Origin: an uncultured Clostridia bacterium | Lineage (GTDB): Bacteria > Bacillota > Clostridia > Lachnospirales > CAG-274 | Direction of reading: 5' to 3' | Assembly (NCBI GenBank): GCA_947591605.1 | Contig: CANQDF010000004.1 | Span: 1 to 64,000 of the forward strand | DNA: 64,000 nucleotides | Shown here: positions 23,277-60,532 of the stretch, one piece after another | Layout: each line of letters begins with the position of its first letter | How positions within the stretch are numbered: position 1 is the stretch's first letter | Program-made: the position numbers and the translations under genes | The notes under the pieces: generated by a model | Database searches by the model: none | Told to the model about the DNA's origin: nothing | Seen by the model: the letters and a program-made list of their open reading frames with translations, nothing else

Positions 23277-23294
23277 AGCTGCCTTGCGACAGCT
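23277..23294. repeat. Direct repeat (outer copy) flanking repeat A: hairpin palindrome
   Basis: AGCTGCCTTGCGACAGCT: a 7-bp inverted repeat around TTGC, with one mismatch in the right arm. It duplicates the hairpin at 23535-23552 with a single base change. Confidence 0.8.
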
Positions 23295-23534
23295 CAGACT
23301 GTCAAAAAGCCTAAAATCAGATTCAAAAAATGATTTTTTAAGAGTTTAAACTTACAAAAGCACTTCAAGGTAATTTAAGCGCCGCAGGCTAAAATCCGCA
23401 GGACGAGCTTTGCCCGTCCGAGGAAAAGAGGGAGTGTCGAGCGATAGCGAGGCGCGAATCTCTTTGTACTCTGTGAAAAAAATGCAGGAAATGTGTGCAT
23501 TTCCTGCAAGCGTGTCGACTTTTTCGACACGCAG
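23295..23534 (-). mobile_element. Small non-autonomous repeat element, copy A (240 bp)
   Basis: This is the same element as at 36.2 and 56.5 kb, in opposite orientation. It has imperfect terminal inverted repeats; the right-hand terminus reads CTGCGTGTCGAAAAAG on the minus strand and the left-hand terminus CAGACTGTCAAAAAG on the plus strand. Inside, in element order, are a GTGTCGA/TCGACAC hairpin, a GCAGGAAATG/CATTTCCTGC hairpin followed by a T-run, and the hairpin GGACGGGCAAAGCTCGTCC. No open reading frame of its own is convincing. It sits between the ABC ATPase and MATE genes, flanked by 18-bp duplications that are themselves hairpins. Confidence 0.8.
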
Positions 23535-23552
23535 AGCTGCCTTGCGGCAGCT
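23535..23552 (-). terminator. Hairpin after the ABC ATPase gene; inner direct repeat of repeat A
   Basis: AGCTGCCTTGCGGCAGCT is a perfect 7-bp hairpin starting two bases after the stop codon of the ATPase gene. It was probably the operon's terminator hairpin before the repeat inserted; the T-run that should follow is now replaced by the element. Confidence 0.6.
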
Positions 23553-23554
23553 TT

Positions 23555-24349
23555 TTAATCAAGCAGCATTCTGTCATTTTCCATCTTTTCACCGCTTGCC
23601 TTTTCAAACATATTAAGCAAATCGGGAACATCAAGCCCCTTTTTCTCCTCGGCATTTATATTAAGTATACAGTTGCCCTTATTCATCATTATGAGTCTGT
23701 TGCCTACCCTGAGAGCGTCACGCATATTATGTGTGACCATCATTGCGGTAAGCTTGTTTTCACCCACTATTTTTACCGTAAGCTCAAGCACCTTTGCTGC
23801 CGTTTTTGGGTCGAGCGCTGCCGTATGCTCGTCAAGCAGCAGTATCTTTGGATGATGGAAGGACGCCATAAGCAGCGTAAGCGCCTGCCTCTGTCCTCCC
23901 GAAAGAAAACGTGTCTTGTCCTTAAGGCGGTTTTCAAGCCCAAGGTCAAGCTGTGAGAGCACCTCTCTGAAATAGTCCCTCTCCTTGTTGGTTATGCCCC
24001 ACTTCAATGTCCTGGGCTTACCCCTTCTGTAAGCAATTGCAAGGTTCTCCTCAATAGTCATATCGGTAGCGGTACCCATGCGGGGGTCCTGAAACACTCT
24101 GCCTATATGCTTTGCCCTTTTATATACGGGCATCCTTGTAACATCCGTATTGTCTATCTCTATTTTACCGGAGGTAATCACAAAATTGCCTGCAATTGCA
24201 TTTAACATAGTGGATTTGCCTGCTCCGTTACCTCCTATTATGGTTATAAAATCACCCTGTTCAACATCCAGGTCTATTCCCTTTAAGACATGCTTTTCGT
24301 TAATGGTGCCCTGTTCAAATATCTGATGTACTTCACTGAGCTTAAGCAT
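23555..24349 (-). CDS. ABC transporter ATP-binding protein (ABC_sub_bind-type importer)
   Basis: A 264-residue ATPase with Walker A GGNGAGKST (39-47), signature LSGGQ (149-153) and Walker B LLLDE (170-174). It energises uptake together with the permease and lipoprotein encoded just upstream. The start overlaps the permease by eight bases with GGGGAGG in front. Importers of this family in streptococci have been tied to tryptophan uptake, but the ligand here is not known. Confidence 0.9.
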   Translation of the reverse strand: MLKLSEVHQIFEQGTINEKHVLKGIDLDVEQGDFITIIGGNGAGKSTMLNAIAGNFVITSGKIEIDNTDVTRMPVYKRAKHIGRVFQDPRMGTATDMTIEENLAIAYRRGKPRTLKWGITNKERDYFREVLSQLDLGLENRLKDKTRFLSGGQRQALTLLMASFHHPKILLLDEHTAALDPKTAAKVLELTVKIVGENKLTAMMVTHNMRDALRVGNRLIMMNKGNCILNINAEEKKGLDVPDLLNMFEKASGEKMENDRMLLD

Positions 24350-35285: not shown

Positions 35286-36125
35286 ATGAAAAAAATATTT
35301 TTTGCATGCCTTACGGCAGGTATTATGTTGTTTTCCGCCGCAAATGTTTTTGCGGGAAACACTTTGTCGGTACAGCTCGACGGTCAGAGCGTTGCATTTA
35401 ACGGTCAGCAGCCCGTAATAGTCGACGGCAGAACACTTATACCCTTAAGAGGCGTATTTGAAAAGATGGGTTACAATGTAAGCTGGGAGGCAAACACAAA
35501 AACAGCCGTGCTGGAATCAGGCAGCTCCGAGGTGCGTGTTACCGCAAACAGCAGCACCTTTGATGTAAACGGCACTCCAACCGGGCTTGATGTACCCGCA
35601 CAGATAATGAACGGATCAATGATGCTCCCCTTGCGTGCAATAGGCGAGGCGGCAGGAGCAAAAGTAAGCTGGGACGCACCCACAAAAACGGTAATTATAG
35701 ATACCTCATCATTAAATGCGGATGATGTTGTAAAAGCAAGTGATTATCAGCTTGCCTATACCAAGGCTGTAAGCCCCGTAGACAGCATTTCAAAGCTTTT
35801 TGACGAGTTCAATTCGCTTGACGGGGATATATCCGCAGAGGCGCTTGCGGAATACCGTTCAAGGCTTTTTGAGGCAAACAACACAGTTTTGTCGGTAAAA
35901 TCCGCCGTTATGGCTCTCAATGTGCCTGAAAGCATGCAGGAGCTTCATGCGGTAAGGCTTGAGGCACTGGATAAATTGAGCGAAACAATAAGCGTGCTTA
36001 TAGACTACTGCGACGGAAATATGTCCGACAGCGATGTGGATACCAAAACAAACGAGATCGCCGCTCAGGTAGACGATATATACAAGAGAAACAGCCGTAT
36101 ACTGGAAGGCATTGAATTAAAATAA
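35286..36125 (+). CDS. Secreted stalk-domain protein (copper amine oxidase N-terminal-like)
   Basis: A 279-residue exported protein: signal peptide (about 1-22, ending NVFA), then a stalk domain of two repeats (about 26-135) with PVIVDGRTLIPLRGVFEKMGY-like and MLPLRAIGEA signatures, then a helical C-terminal region (about 145-279) that I do not recognise. Stalk domains are common on surface and wall-linked proteins of Clostridia. GGGAG gives the start. It resembles the two stalk proteins at 58-60 kb in layout. Confidence 0.82.
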   Translation: MKKIFFACLTAGIMLFSAANVFAGNTLSVQLDGQSVAFNGQQPVIVDGRTLIPLRGVFEKMGYNVSWEANTKTAVLESGSSEVRVTANSSTFDVNGTPTGLDVPAQIMNGSMMLPLRAIGEAAGAKVSWDAPTKTVIIDTSSLNADDVVKASDYQLAYTKAVSPVDSISKLFDEFNSLDGDISAEALAEYRSRLFEANNTVLSVKSAVMALNVPESMQELHAVRLEALDKLSETISVLIDYCDGNMSDSDVDTKTNEIAAQVDDIYKRNSRILEGIELK

Positions 36126-36136
36126 TACAAACAAGA

Positions 36137-36162
36137 AAGGGGCGTTGCAAAACAACGCCCCT
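36137..36162. repeat. Left direct repeat of repeat B: terminator hairpin without T-run
   Basis: A 26-bp sequence made of AGGGGCGTTG, CAAAA and CAACGCCCCT with one extra A. It lies 12 bp after the stalk gene. It is an exact copy of 36402-36427 but is followed by the element and not by T residues. Confidence 0.85.
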
Positions 36163-36401
36163 CAGCGTGTCGAAAAAGTCGACACGCTTGCAGGAAATGC
36201 TTACATTTCCTGCATTTTTTTACAGAGTATAAAGAGATTCGCGCCTCGCTATCGCTCGACACTCCCTCTTTTCCTCGGACGGGCAAAGCTCGTCCTGCGG
36301 ATTTTAGCCTGCGGCGCTTAAATTACCTTAAAGTGTTTTTGCAAGTTTGAATTCTTTAAAAATCATTTTTTGGATCTGATTTTAGGTTTTTCGACAGTCT
36401 G
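36163..36401 (+). mobile_element. Small non-autonomous repeat element, copy B (239 bp)
   Basis: Starts CAGCGTGTCGAAAAAG and ends in the complement of CAGACTGTCGAAAAAC, giving imperfect terminal inverted repeats of about 16 bp. Internal hairpins are GCGTGTCGA/TCGACACGC, GCAGGAAATG/CATTTCCTGC (followed by a T-run) and GGACGGGCAAAGCTCGTCC at 36277-36295. Both ends contain TGTCGAAAAA. It is inserted into the terminator of the stalk gene, with the whole terminator hairpin duplicated on either side. Confidence 0.85.
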
Positions 36402-36433
36402 AAGGGGCGTTGCAAAACAACGCCCCTTTTTTA
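36402..36433 (+). terminator. Right direct repeat of repeat B: terminator hairpin with T-run
   Basis: An exact duplicate of the hairpin at 36137-36162 (10-bp stem AGGGGCGTTG/CAACGCCCCT), here followed by TTTTTT. It is the original 3' end of the stalk gene's terminator. Confidence 0.85.
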
Positions 36434-36464: not shown

Positions 36465-37934
36465 TTACAGAGTGTTTTTAGGCAGTACATTTTTATACTC
36501 ATTCAAATAATCAAGTATTTCGGAAATATACGGTTCGGATCTTTCCCGGTATTCTTTCATACCATCATCTACGGACATATCACCGCAAACTGTTTTTTCA
36601 AGTATTTCCGCCTTTATGATCATCAGATACATAATATTTTCATTGTATATTTCCGAATCGTTATAAATTGTAGAATATATACCGCTGCTGTTTGCATAGA
36701 ATACATCAAGCGAATCATGCTCTTTATCATCCGATTTAACGGGATCATCAAAATCCGTAATGGTTTTAAGCGGATCATAAAAGGCATAGCGGCAATAACT
36801 ATCGCCGACAGGCATTATATTTGCCTCTCCTTTTTCGTTAAGCTCATACGTCACATTTTCCACGCCTCTTGAAAAAAGCATCTCACCCTCGCCGCCGTCA
36901 TGTGAATATTCTATAAAATATTTGAATATCGCTTCGGGATCGCTTGCCTTACTGCTTATAACAAGGATATAAGGAGTGTGCTCCATATATTTTTCCCCAT
37001 CAATAGGAGGTATCGCTATGAACTCTCCTGTGGGGTCGGTCTTTTTGACCATATCATCCAATCTTTCGTTCCAATAGCCTGCCCAACAGTTAAGAGCGCC
37101 CACTTGTCCCGCTTCCACCTTTTCATAGCAGGTACTGTTATGGTTGTCGAGTATGTCGTGATCGATAAGTCCTTCGGCATAGGCATATTTCAGCCTTTGT
37201 ATTGCCGCATACATTTCGGGAGTTGTAAAGCCGTCATAATACTCTCCCTTTTCCTCATCATACAGTATACCCGGATCGGCATCCTGATAAAACTTGCTTA
37301 AATACATGCTGCAGGGCTGTTCAGTCCATAATAACCCCGCTGCCGTATACGGGACAATATCCTCTCCCCTTGCCTTGAATGCACGCAGTACATCCAAAAA
37401 TTCGTCATAGCTTGCAGGTATATCAAGTCCTGCCTCGTCAAGCCAATCTTTGCGTAAATAGGTAACTGTTCCGGGATATTTCTCCATAGGGAAACCGTAT
37501 AATCTGCCGTTGATACTTAGTGCATCAATATATTTTTTGTCTATTTTGTCACGAAGCGGCGACTTTTCCCACGCATCGGTCATATCCCAAAGCAGACCTT
37601 TGTTTGCATACTCGGTATAGTGTTCGGGATCAATTTGGACAACATCCGTATCGCCGTCTTCAAGCATTGATTTTTCAAATGCCGTATAATTTCCGTACTC
37701 GTTTCTTTTGACTTCAAGCCTGACGCCTGTATTTTTGTAATATTCATCACAAAAGTCGTTCAAGGCTAAATCGTAAATATATCCTCTGTTTATACAGGCT
37801 GTTATTTTTTCGGGCTTATTTATTTCTTCTTTCACATCAACAGGCTCATTCCAAAGCCTTGCCGTGTTGAGGCACAGGCTTGAAAAAATTGTTATGCCTG
37901 AACATAGAGCTATTGCAACATTTTCCTTTTTCAT
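36465..37934 (-). CDS. Extracellular solute-binding protein (family 1), orphan
   Basis: A 489-residue exported sugar-binding-type protein: an N-terminal hydrophobic segment (about 5-24; SSLCLNTA is not a good lipobox), then a two-lobed fold (NYTAFEKSMLEDGDTDVVQID, ALNCWAGYWNERL). Family members bind oligosaccharides for ABC import. No permease or ATPase genes are adjacent, so it must either work with a distant system or act as a sensor. The gene lies alone between the stalk/repeat region and the helicase. GGGGTGAAGGG precedes the ATG. Confidence 0.82.
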   Translation of the reverse strand: MKKENVAIALCSGITIFSSLCLNTARLWNEPVDVKEEINKPEKITACINRGYIYDLALNDFCDEYYKNTGVRLEVKRNEYGNYTAFEKSMLEDGDTDVVQIDPEHYTEYANKGLLWDMTDAWEKSPLRDKIDKKYIDALSINGRLYGFPMEKYPGTVTYLRKDWLDEAGLDIPASYDEFLDVLRAFKARGEDIVPYTAAGLLWTEQPCSMYLSKFYQDADPGILYDEEKGEYYDGFTTPEMYAAIQRLKYAYAEGLIDHDILDNHNSTCYEKVEAGQVGALNCWAGYWNERLDDMVKKTDPTGEFIAIPPIDGEKYMEHTPYILVISSKASDPEAIFKYFIEYSHDGGEGEMLFSRGVENVTYELNEKGEANIMPVGDSYCRYAFYDPLKTITDFDDPVKSDDKEHDSLDVFYANSSGIYSTIYNDSEIYNENIMYLMIIKAEILEKTVCGDMSVDDGMKEYRERSEPYISEILDYLNEYKNVLPKNTL

Positions 37935-56520: not shown

Positions 56521-56542
56521 GTATTATTAAATATAATAATAT
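56521..56542. repeat. Left direct repeat of repeat C: AT-rich palindrome
   Basis: A 22-bp sequence consisting of TATTATTA, AATA, TAATAATA plus one flanking base on each side, an 8-bp inverted repeat. It is identical to 56780-56801. Confidence 0.8.
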
Positions 56543-56779
56543 CAGCGTGTCGAAAAAGTCGACACGCTTGCAGGAAATGCTTGCATTTCCTGCATTTTTT
56601 CACAGAGTATAAAGAGATTCGTGCCTCGCTATCGCTCGACACTCCCTCTTTTCCTCGGCGGAAGTGAATTCCGCCTGCGGATTTTAGCCTGCGGCGCTTA
56701 AGTTACCTTAAAGTGTTTGCAAGTCTAGGTTCTAAAAAATTCATTTTTTTGATTTATTTTTAGGTTTTTTGAAAGTCTG
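56543..56779 (+). mobile_element. Small non-autonomous repeat element, copy C (237 bp)
   Basis: It starts CAGCGTGTCGAAAAAG like copy B; the right end is more worn (complement of CAGACTTTCAAAAAACC). The GCAGGAAATG/CATTTCCTGC hairpin is conserved. At the place of the third hairpin of copies A and B this copy has GGCGGAAGTGAATTCCGCC (56657-56675): another sequence of the same length that still pairs. It separates the GGDEF-EAL gene from trmD. Confidence 0.85.
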
Positions 56780-56801
56780 GTATTATTAAATATAATAATA
56801 T
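56780..56801. repeat. Right direct repeat of repeat C
   Basis: An exact copy of the 22-bp palindrome at the left side of the element. The 120 bp that follow up to the trmD terminator are AT-rich with nothing recognisable. Confidence 0.8.
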
Positions 56802-58218: not shown

Positions 58219-59238
58219 TTATTCTTCTTCCGAGTCCATAGCAGCAGATTCCGAGTCTATAACAACAGACAAAATAAGCTTTGCATCCTCTTCGGATAAG
58301 TTTCGCTCTGTAAGGAAGCTGTTTACCGTATTTTCAAATTCAGACTCCCGGGTCTTCATACACACAATATAGGACATCATCAAGCCAAGGCCTATATTGT
58401 TGTTTACATCATCCGTTTCACCCTCAAGCAGGATCAGGTTATCCGCCATATTGGTTGCCAAATCACCTATATCAACATGGAATTCCTCCAAGGTTTTTTC
58501 AAAATCTTTAAGGCTTTCCGGACAGTCGATTTTAGCAATATCCGAGTTTACTCTGCCTATAAATTCATCTACAACAGCTTTTTTCTCCTCATTGGTTGCT
58601 GTGTCGTACTTGTCACTGTAAGTCGAGCTTTCCGCCTCATACGACCTAAGCACATCATTAAGAGCGGCAAAAAAGGCTTTTTCCTCTTCGGTAAGGTTAC
58701 CGACAGGCTTTGTGCTGTCAGGCTTGTACTCCGGTTTTTTATCTGTGAGCAAAGTACCCGACATGCTTTCTATTTCAGCCTTTCTTGCATCAAGCTCGGT
58801 ATAATTGTTATTGTCGATTACCGTAGTGGTTTTTGTGGCTGCGTCCCACTGCAGCTCATAACCGACAGATTCAAGTATCTCCCTTAAGGGCAGCATTGTT
58901 CTGCCGTTTACTATCTGCACGGTGTTTTCAAGCCTGCTTGCCTTTGGAACAAATGTAAGGTCAACAACAAACAGCTTGCTTGTGACCGTAGTAAGCATGA
59001 TGCTGTAGTAGTCGTTTGTAATACTCACTATTTTGGTATCGGCGTCCCATTCCACCTTAAAGCCGAGCTTTTCAAACACGTCCCTTATGGGCACATAGGT
59101 CCTGCTGTCGATAATAACAGGCTGCTGATCCGTGTAGGTCATCTGCTCACCGTTGTAGACAATGCCGTCCGCAAGCACGGACATAGGGCTTGTTAAAAGC
59201 ATTATTCCCGCTAAAGTTAATGCAATAAATTTTTTCAT
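58219..59238 (-). CDS. Secreted stalk-domain protein, paralogue 1
   Basis: A 339-residue exported protein: signal peptide (1-23, ending SVLA), two stalk repeats (about 25-145; PVIIDSRTYVPIRDVFEKLGF, MLPLREILESVGYELQWD-type), then an acidic helical C-terminal region (about 175-339) of unknown function. Its first 60 codons and 5' region are identical to those of the neighbouring paralogue, while the rest has diverged. GGGAGG gives the start. It is followed closely by rimM. Confidence 0.85.
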   Translation of the reverse strand: MKKFIALTLAGIMLLTSPMSVLADGIVYNGEQMTYTDQQPVIIDSRTYVPIRDVFEKLGFKVEWDADTKIVSITNDYYSIMLTTVTSKLFVVDLTFVPKASRLENTVQIVNGRTMLPLREILESVGYELQWDAATKTTTVIDNNNYTELDARKAEIESMSGTLLTDKKPEYKPDSTKPVGNLTEEEKAFFAALNDVLRSYEAESSTYSDKYDTATNEEKKAVVDEFIGRVNSDIAKIDCPESLKDFEKTLEEFHVDIGDLATNMADNLILLEGETDDVNNNIGLGLMMSYIVCMKTRESEFENTVNSFLTERNLSEEDAKLILSVVIDSESAAMDSEEE

Positions 59239-59384
59239 TATTTTACCTCCCTTTATGGCTGTATAAAGATATTATGTACTGTTATTTTCTGTACAGAAAT
59301 ATATCAGTACCCGAATATATTTTAAGTTTATCATAAACAGCCCGATAACGCAAGAAAATGTATAAAAAAACGGCAGATGTAAAA
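59059..59384. repeat. 326-bp duplicated block, copy 1 (stalk gene 5' end and promoter region)
   Basis: It covers the first 60 codons of stalk paralogue 1 and about 145 bp upstream. By eye it is identical to 60207-60532, including silent positions and non-coding DNA. The block ends inside a terminator hairpin, whose second arm lies outside it. Confidence 0.85.
59286..59353 (-). promoter_or_regulatory. Promoter and nested palindromes ahead of stalk paralogue 1
   Basis: A TTGCGT-17-TAAACT promoter candidate (59353 to 59325) is followed by TTTCTGTACAGAAA (59286-59299), a perfect 14-bp palindrome, nested inside a GTACTG/CAGTAC pair. This may be an operator or a leader hairpin. The same sequence precedes paralogue 2. 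Confidence 0.5.
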
Positions 59385-59393
59385 TCATGCCGT
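59370..59393 (-). terminator. Terminator of stalk paralogue 2
   Basis: ACGGCA/TGCCGT stem with a 12-nt loop, followed by T-runs on both strands. Its left arm belongs to the duplicated block; in the other copy the matching arm is missing. Confidence 0.65.
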
Positions 59394-59429
59394 TTTTATT
59401 TTAACTGCCCACAGCTTAAGAAGCGGGGC

Positions 59430-60386
59430 TTAATCGGGCGATATATTATTATATGTATCGTCATTAATATTTCTTTCCACAAAGAAATCCTCGAAAGTAT
59501 TGTTCAATTCATAAGAGCTTATAGCTATTCCGTTTAAAATAAATCTGCTCGCATATTCAAGCAAAATATCCGCCCTGTTTTTTGGCTCATCATCGCAAAG
59601 CTCTATGATATGAGCAAAGTCTACCGCAAGCTCCTTTACCTCCTCCATGTTGGTTCTGAATACAGTATCGCAGGCTTTAAGACTATCGGGGCACGCAACC
59701 CTTTCAAGCTTACTTACAGCCTCTGCCGTCTGCTTGTTATACTCCTCCCTGATCTCATCGGGGGACATGACAGAAAAATCAATAATAAAGTATGTATCCT
59801 CACCCAGTAAAGAGGTGAGATTTTTAAAATACGCAATTTCCTCATCGGTAAGCTCCCCCTCGGGCTTTGAAGGATCAAAGCTGTAATCTTTATCATAGTT
59901 GCCCAATGCTATATTGTTAAACCTTTTGACCTTTTCATCAAGCAGCTTGTAATCATTTTTGTCGTTTATGACTGTCGTCTTTGAAGCGGGATCCCATACA
60001 AGCTCATAGCCCATAGGCTCCAGTATCTCACGCAGCGGCAGCATTGTCCTGCCGTTTACTATACGCACAGGGCTTTCCAGCTTTTTGCCTCTGTCATGGT
60101 AATCCATATCCACCACAAACAGCTTGCTTGTGTCGGCTGTTATATGCGCATAATAATAATCGTTTTCCAGGGTCACTAATTTGTTTGCACTATCCCAGCC
60201 CACCTCAAAGCCGAGCTTTTCAAACACGTCCCTTATGGGCACATAGGTCCTGCTGTCGATAATAACAGGCTGCTGATCCGTGTAGGTCATCTGCTCACCG
60301 TTGTAGACAATGCCGTCCGCAAGCACGGACATAGGGCTTGTTAAAAGCATTATTCCCGCTAAAGTTAATGCAATAAATTTTTTCAT
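59430..60386 (-). CDS. Secreted stalk-domain protein, paralogue 2
   Basis: A 318-residue exported protein with the same layout as paralogue 1: signal peptide (1-23), two stalk repeats, and a helical acidic tail ending NINDDTYNNISPD. The N-terminal 60 residues are the same as in paralogue 1; the C-terminal half shares only scattered residues. This pattern suggests that recent recombination copied one 5' end onto the other. Partner or ligand is unknown. GGGAGG marks the start. Confidence 0.85.
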   Translation of the reverse strand: MKKFIALTLAGIMLLTSPMSVLADGIVYNGEQMTYTDQQPVIIDSRTYVPIRDVFEKLGFEVGWDSANKLVTLENDYYYAHITADTSKLFVVDMDYHDRGKKLESPVRIVNGRTMLPLREILEPMGYELVWDPASKTTVINDKNDYKLLDEKVKRFNNIALGNYDKDYSFDPSKPEGELTDEEIAYFKNLTSLLGEDTYFIIDFSVMSPDEIREEYNKQTAEAVSKLERVACPDSLKACDTVFRTNMEEVKELAVDFAHIIELCDDEPKNRADILLEYASRFILNGIAISSYELNNTFEDFFVERNINDDTYNNISPD

Positions 60387-60532
60387 TATTTTACCTCCCT
60401 TTATGGCTGTATAAAGATATTATGTACTGTTATTTTCTGTACAGAAATATATCAGTACCCGAATATATTTTAAGTTTATCATAAACAGCCCGATAACGCA
60501 AGAAAATGTATAAAAAAACGGCAGATGTAAAA
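60207..60532. repeat. 326-bp duplicated block, copy 2
   Basis: Identical to 59059-59384 at a fixed offset of 1148 bp. It carries the palindrome TTTCTGTACAGAAA again at 60434-60447, and a half-terminator relic at its right end. Confidence 0.85.

Follow-up and report, generated by a model that had tools for sequence, protein, structure and literature searches.

The three repeats in the window, a 64,000-nucleotide stretch of an uncultured Clostridia genome, are copies of one element of about 240 bp that lacks a transposase gene, and each is bordered on both sides by a complete DNA hairpin. It belongs to an IS1182-family insertion sequence (IS) as its MITE, and from the ends and target behaviour that the two have in common we infer mobilisation in trans by the DDE transposase of that IS. 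Attack of this enzyme on the feet of a hairpin, followed by gap repair, very probably explains both the MITE and its hairpin duplications.

Copy B lies between the 3′ ends of two convergent ORFs (35286-36125, plus strand; 36465-37934, minus strand), and copy A directly 3′ of the stop codon of an ORF for an ABC-transporter ATPase (23555-24349, minus strand). An earlier, sequence-only reading had described exact 26-bp hairpin repeats around copy B, with a T-run behind the right one only, and unrelated palindromes around copy A (18 bp, one change) and copy C (22 bp, exact); our re-check of the sequence agrees in each case (Table 1). The repeat of copy B consists of a 25-bp hairpin and one additional A and is therefore one base off perfect symmetry. 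The palindrome of copy C is AT-only and has no T-run, so that it forms a hairpin but no obvious terminator. Insertion into a terminator, as proposed for copy B with its T-run, is not obvious at copy C, and some of the target hairpins are not terminators.

Table 1. Positions of the MITE copies, their target duplications and associated hairpins in the window
Feature	Position	Strand	Basis
Copy A, right target duplication AGCTGTCGCAAGGCAGCT (minus strand), 18 bp, one mismatch to left copy	23277..23294	-	
Copy A, MITE, 240 bp	23295..23534	-	
Copy A, left target duplication AGCTGCCGCAAGGCAGCT (minus strand), 18 bp	23535..23552	-	
Copy B, left target duplication, complete hairpin AAGGGGCGTTGCAAAACAACGCCCCT lacking T-run	36137..36162	+	exact match to 36402-36427
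Copy B, MITE, 239 bp, ends CAGCGTGTCGAAAAA ... GACAGTCTG	36163..36401	+	consensus ends in genome copies; terminal repeat common to IS1182 element
Hairpin on MITE left terminal repeat, AGCGTGTCGA-AAAAG-TCGACACGCT	36164..36188	+	fold
Terminator-like hairpin carried by MITE, TGCAGGAAATG-CTTA-CATTTCCTGCA + T7	36189..36221	+	
Copy B, right target duplication, same hairpin AAGGGGCGTTGCAAAACAACGCCCCT	36402..36427	+	exact, 26 bp
T-run (TTTTTT) of original terminator, present only behind right hairpin of copy B	36428..36433	+	
Copy C, left target duplication GTATTATTAAATATAATAATAT, AT-only palindrome, 22 bp	56521..56542	+	exact
Copy C, MITE, 237 bp	56543..56779	+	
Copy C, right target duplication GTATTATTAAATATAATAATAT, 22 bp	56780..56801	+	exact

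About 40 copies or fragments of the element are present in the window's genome. It has the hallmarks of a MITE, being short, multicopy and devoid of a transposase gene, with a target duplication and with terminal repeats in common with an autonomous IS: the reverse complement of its right end, GACAGTCTG, begins CAGACTGTC, and the terminal repeat CAGACTGTC(A/G)AAAAA is common to the MITE and an IS bearing an IS1182-family transposase gene. Folding yields additional hairpins in the interior of the MITE; an Rfam search returned no match near the gathering score. In a sister species (G001) the left hairpin is changed on both arms, from GCGTGTCGA/TCGACACGC to GGCTGTCGA/TCGACAGCC, so that pairing is kept. 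Hairpin duplication, with unrelated hairpins, is also found at most other MITE copies in the window's genome, and two more species of the genus show it as well.

The MITE copies vary in their hairpins. Three (L025, L032, L038) have a left-end hairpin of the GGGGGTGTTGTAAAACAACACCCCC type in place of GCGTGTCGA..TCGACACGC, and two (L024, L035) carry, within the second hairpin, an extra hairpin unit of ~50-60 bp (CATTTACGAGGAACAAACGAG..GTACCTCGTTTG) that also flanks L014 and is possibly another small palindromic element or a sign of a mosaic MITE. One inner hairpin differs wholly between copies B (GGACGGGCAAAGCTCGTCC, near 36275-36300) and C (GGCGGAAGTGAATTCCGCC, near 56655-56680), as if hairpins within the MITE had been swapped.

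The partner IS is multicopy in the window's genome. Against the IS1182 model NF033551 (cut-off 270 bits), two full relatives from the same taxonomic family scored 400 and 417 bits, and the longest transposase fragment of the window's genome (279 aa) gave a partial match of 232.5 bits; the transposase domains are PF05598 and PF13751. Assignment to the IS1634 family found no such agreement, with 19.5 bits for one fragment (cut-off 100) and no match for two full proteins among the matches listed. IS1182 elements are defined by a single ORF, a length of about 1.3-1.95 kb and terminal inverted repeats; the full copy of the window's genome is unassembled, and an intact IS in the family member G006 has 1.51 kb, a single 475-aa ORF and CAG repeats, and is flanked by two copies of ACCGCCGCATTTATAATGCGGCGGT. 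D145, D273 and E401 of the G006 protein, invariant in the alignment and assigned by motif, are the likely catalytic residues.

Within the window's genome, eight contigs start or stop about 75 bp inside the right end of the IS, which appears to be a collapsed repeat in the assembly. Five pairs of contig ends rejoin via identical or near-identical hairpins (C20/C6, 21 bp; C1/C11, 32 bp, 31 of them identical; C26/C25, 29 bp; C12/C40, 31 bp; C17/C51, 24 bp). At C12/C40, C42/C15 and C20/C6 (L058, L048, L260, L045, L059, L043) the IS is inserted into hairpins beside or inside MITE-like sequence, and at C20/C6 a single hairpin lies between IS and MITE, indicating that hairpins act as repeated landing sites.

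To see how general the pattern is, we assembled 101 elements with both ends, comprising 47 MITEs from three species of the genus and 54 autonomous IS1182 copies, mostly from other Bacillota. The latter came from a scan of named genomes that gave 80 related loci, 54 of them with both ends found; the hosts are Bacillus, Cytobacillus, Lysinibacillus, Sporosarcina, Domibacillus, Enterococcus, Gemmiger, other Clostridia and one MAG labelled Chloroflexota. Direct repeats that match between the two ends, with a flank-overlap score of at least 12, were obtained for 82 of the 101 elements, a count slightly favoured by the partial use of the overlap score in picking right ends and drawn from copies that are not fully independent within one genome. 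None of 1500 mismatched flank pairs reached this score (maximum 9.0), and the flanking repeats are far beyond chance. The survey that the sequence-only reading had called for, extended here to the recoverable copies of the genome, two sister species and the 54 ISs, thus bore out its expectation, as most copies are flanked by a duplication of a whole hairpin. That the hairpin is part of the element was rejected, as its sequence differs from site to site.

Among the autonomous IS1182 copies, 45 of 54 have a strong duplication, and of the remaining nine, seven carry two complete hairpins, one per side, that differ in sequence, which probably reflects homologous recombination between two IS copies. 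We also considered recombination as the origin of the flanking repeats in general and rejected it, since it would yield unequal hairpins, which are seen in a minority of copies only. Duplications of about 8-9 bp, with no hairpin, occur at about four of 22 MITE copies of the window's own genome (L002, L003, L005, L011), and two ISs have duplications of 6-7 bp; these may represent the default stagger of the enzyme, which is hence able to insert at ordinary targets too, or to act inside a single arm. At L005 the short direct repeat sits within one hairpin arm. Six distant or plasmid-borne IS1182 members (L239-L244) had no hairpin duplication, a result of little weight given that the ends of most are unreliable or lie beyond the record.

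The 77 ungapped duplications are 18-39 bp long and almost always comprise one entire hairpin, centred on its axis. When base i was compared with base t-1-i over seven positions, 6.22 of 7 paired at register 0, compared to 1.5-2.5 at shifts of 1-6, and the hairpin axis coincided with the duplication axis (offset 0) in 67 of 77 cases. The duplication length follows that of the folded span (r = 0.93 over the 77), as had been proposed from the three window copies. That this length varies, and can be predicted from the hairpin at the site, strongly argues for a target perceived as a folded structure. In 68 of 77 duplications the first G:C pair is found 1-3 nt inward of the cut, and stem pairing often runs one or two A:T pairs beyond the cut; the foot therefore does not form a sharp structural boundary.

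It is conceivable that linear sequence or flexibility is read at each cut separately, with long, variable staggers on B-form DNA, and that palindromes are hit merely because both of their strands offer the preferred kind of end, A outside GC. A local end motif does exist, in the position of the first G:C pair and in an outermost A...T pair in 49 of the 77 duplications. However, foot sequences are otherwise unrelated between sites, and two short end motifs would be expected to give neither a full in-register stem nor a length tied to that of the hairpin over the range 18-39 bp. Most DDE transposases, moreover, produce one fixed target-duplication length, and DDE transpososomes normally have a fixed active-site spacing. 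We therefore consider independent cuts quite improbable, and recognition of the whole hairpin, which suggests that the enzyme picks its target by DNA shape and not by sequence, is the reading we follow.

In a related analysis, we turned to empty sites, since the sequence-only reading had named empty sites already containing two hairpins as evidence against it. In plasmid pELF_AA94 (AP026614.1), the enterococcal ISEfa7 is flanked by 25-bp copies of AAACGATGCCTATTTAGCATCGTTT; once its two flanks are joined through a single copy, the sequence aligns to AP026606.1 and AP026602.1 in one piece with 100% identity over 775 bp (775/775). These empty sites hold one hairpin and nothing has been lost, so that insertion makes the second. 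At a site in CP063595.1, an IS1182 element whose transposase is about 79% identical to that of ISEfa7 is flanked by the 22-bp repeat AATAGAGCTTTTCAGCTCTATT; other plasmids have this site empty, and the two that were read hold one hairpin. The joined site is covered to 80% or more by 85 records, the right flank there differing by a 5-bp indel. Every enterococcal plasmid site examined thus has a single hairpin, and two-hairpin empty sites are excluded for both the ISEfa7 and the CP063595.1 site. ISEfa7 sites with unequal or rearranged flanks, several beside other ISs, were left out (L187-L191, L193, L195, L196).

These exact empty sites belong to ISEfa7 and a close relative, not to the MITE of the window, the ISEfa7 transposase being about 50% identical to that of G006. 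For the MITE itself, exact empty sites were not found in sister genomes, where gene synteny is retained only and the hairpin sequence differs; in one sister (G002), the orthologue of the gene end at copy A has one hairpin of different sequence and no element. That tandem hairpins pre-existed, or that a stem-loop was replaced, the flanking repeats being incidental, would have a precedent in IS1272 and TnSha1, which belong to the same family and replace a hairpin (PMC4923244, PMC5678879). Yet the empty ISEfa7 sites already contradict this for ISEfa7, and nearly every copy has exact repeats, of different sequence each. We regard such an origin as extremely improbable, and duplication upon insertion as the reading to be explained.

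Strand transfer normally joins the two 3′ ends to the target at staggered positions, and filling of the gaps leaves a short duplication of fixed length. At hairpin targets, each strand is joined at the 5′ foot of the stem, independently of how long the stem is. We propose that the target is an extruded hairpin or cruciform whose two 5′ feet are attacked by the two ends of the transposon: extrusion would place feet separated by 18-39 bp of sequence next to each other at the junction, at a fixed spacing, and the stem-loop would then be copied whole as the gaps are filled, leaving one complete hairpin on each side and a duplication as long as the hairpin. Physical extrusion at the time of attack, as a cruciform or as hairpins in opened DNA, is what we infer from this geometry.

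Extrusion might instead involve just one strand, with the hairpin forming in DNA made single-stranded behind RNA polymerase or at a replication fork, rather than a double-strand cruciform. Targets are terminator-like in 72 of the 82 strong cases, which have TTTT behind the right copy, AAAA ahead of the left copy or both, and at terminators transcription opens the DNA. A clean direct duplication, however, needs symmetric attack on both strands, and copy C resides in an AT palindrome without a T-run; one-strand extrusion seems to us rather unlikely, if well ahead of the other alternatives, and we favour attack on both feet of the extruded structure, although the data fit a cruciform and single-strand opening alike. 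Whether a large Bacillota clade of IS1182 elements picks extruded hairpins in this way, the hairpin setting a duplication length of 18-39 bp in a mode undocumented before, is in our judgement evenly poised.

Direct-repeat lengths given for IS1182 in IS reviews range widely, from 0 to about 60 bp, and ISfinder curators may have already recorded such repeats. Two members, ISPse1 (PMC3281130) and ISCaa15 (PMC3196728), are listed with 4-bp duplications. Hairpin and terminator targeting by the family is already known (PMC4923244, PMC5678879, PMC3098183): IS1272 and TnSha1 of staphylococci, which likewise use an IS1182-family DDE transposase, target inverted repeats by structure, many of them terminators, with no sequence consensus (PMC4923244, PMC5678879). 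In contrast to IS1272, which removes the stem-loop and leaves no duplication, the element studied here keeps and duplicates it; inverted-repeat targets are common to both, and loss of the stem-loop without duplication disagrees with the 82 of 101 duplicated targets and with the empty sites. For ISCbo5, an IS1182 element of Clostridium botulinum group III and C. novyi, all sites but one are gene-end hairpins taken as transcription stop signals, and hairpin duplication is not mentioned in the main text of that report (PMC3098183). ISEfa7 of Enterococcus, IS1182-like according to its RefSeq annotation, has the terminal repeat CAGACTGTAGACAAA and resembles our element in its whole-hairpin duplication and single-hairpin empty site, but is autonomous, with about 1.54 kb. 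The REP-targeting ISs ISPsy8, ISPpu9 and ISRm22 also insert into palindromes, but each into one fixed repeated REP sequence, with 0-6 bp duplications inside the palindrome (PMC1525189).

The earlier impression that no whole-hairpin duplicator is known stands in so far as our literature search found no paper documenting one; it has to be qualified in that hairpin targeting is known in the family and that such a duplication was drawn, hypothetically, as pathway b in Fig. 13 of Wan et al. 2017, where pathway a, stem-loop loss, was chosen for IS1272 (PMC5678879). What was a speculative branch of the IS1272 model is now a pattern in dozens of independent insertions, and structure-guided integration becomes open to tests in vitro. 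The pattern may further account for how such elements can sit behind genes with little harm, since the target hairpin is retained and the MITE adds a terminator of its own. For annotation, identical terminators on either side of a repeat mark an IS1182 insertion and can serve to rejoin contigs broken at an IS. Separately, the window contains a tandem direct repeat at 58785-60453 with a spacing of 1148 bp, in which 300 nt are 94% and 149 nt are 70% identical.
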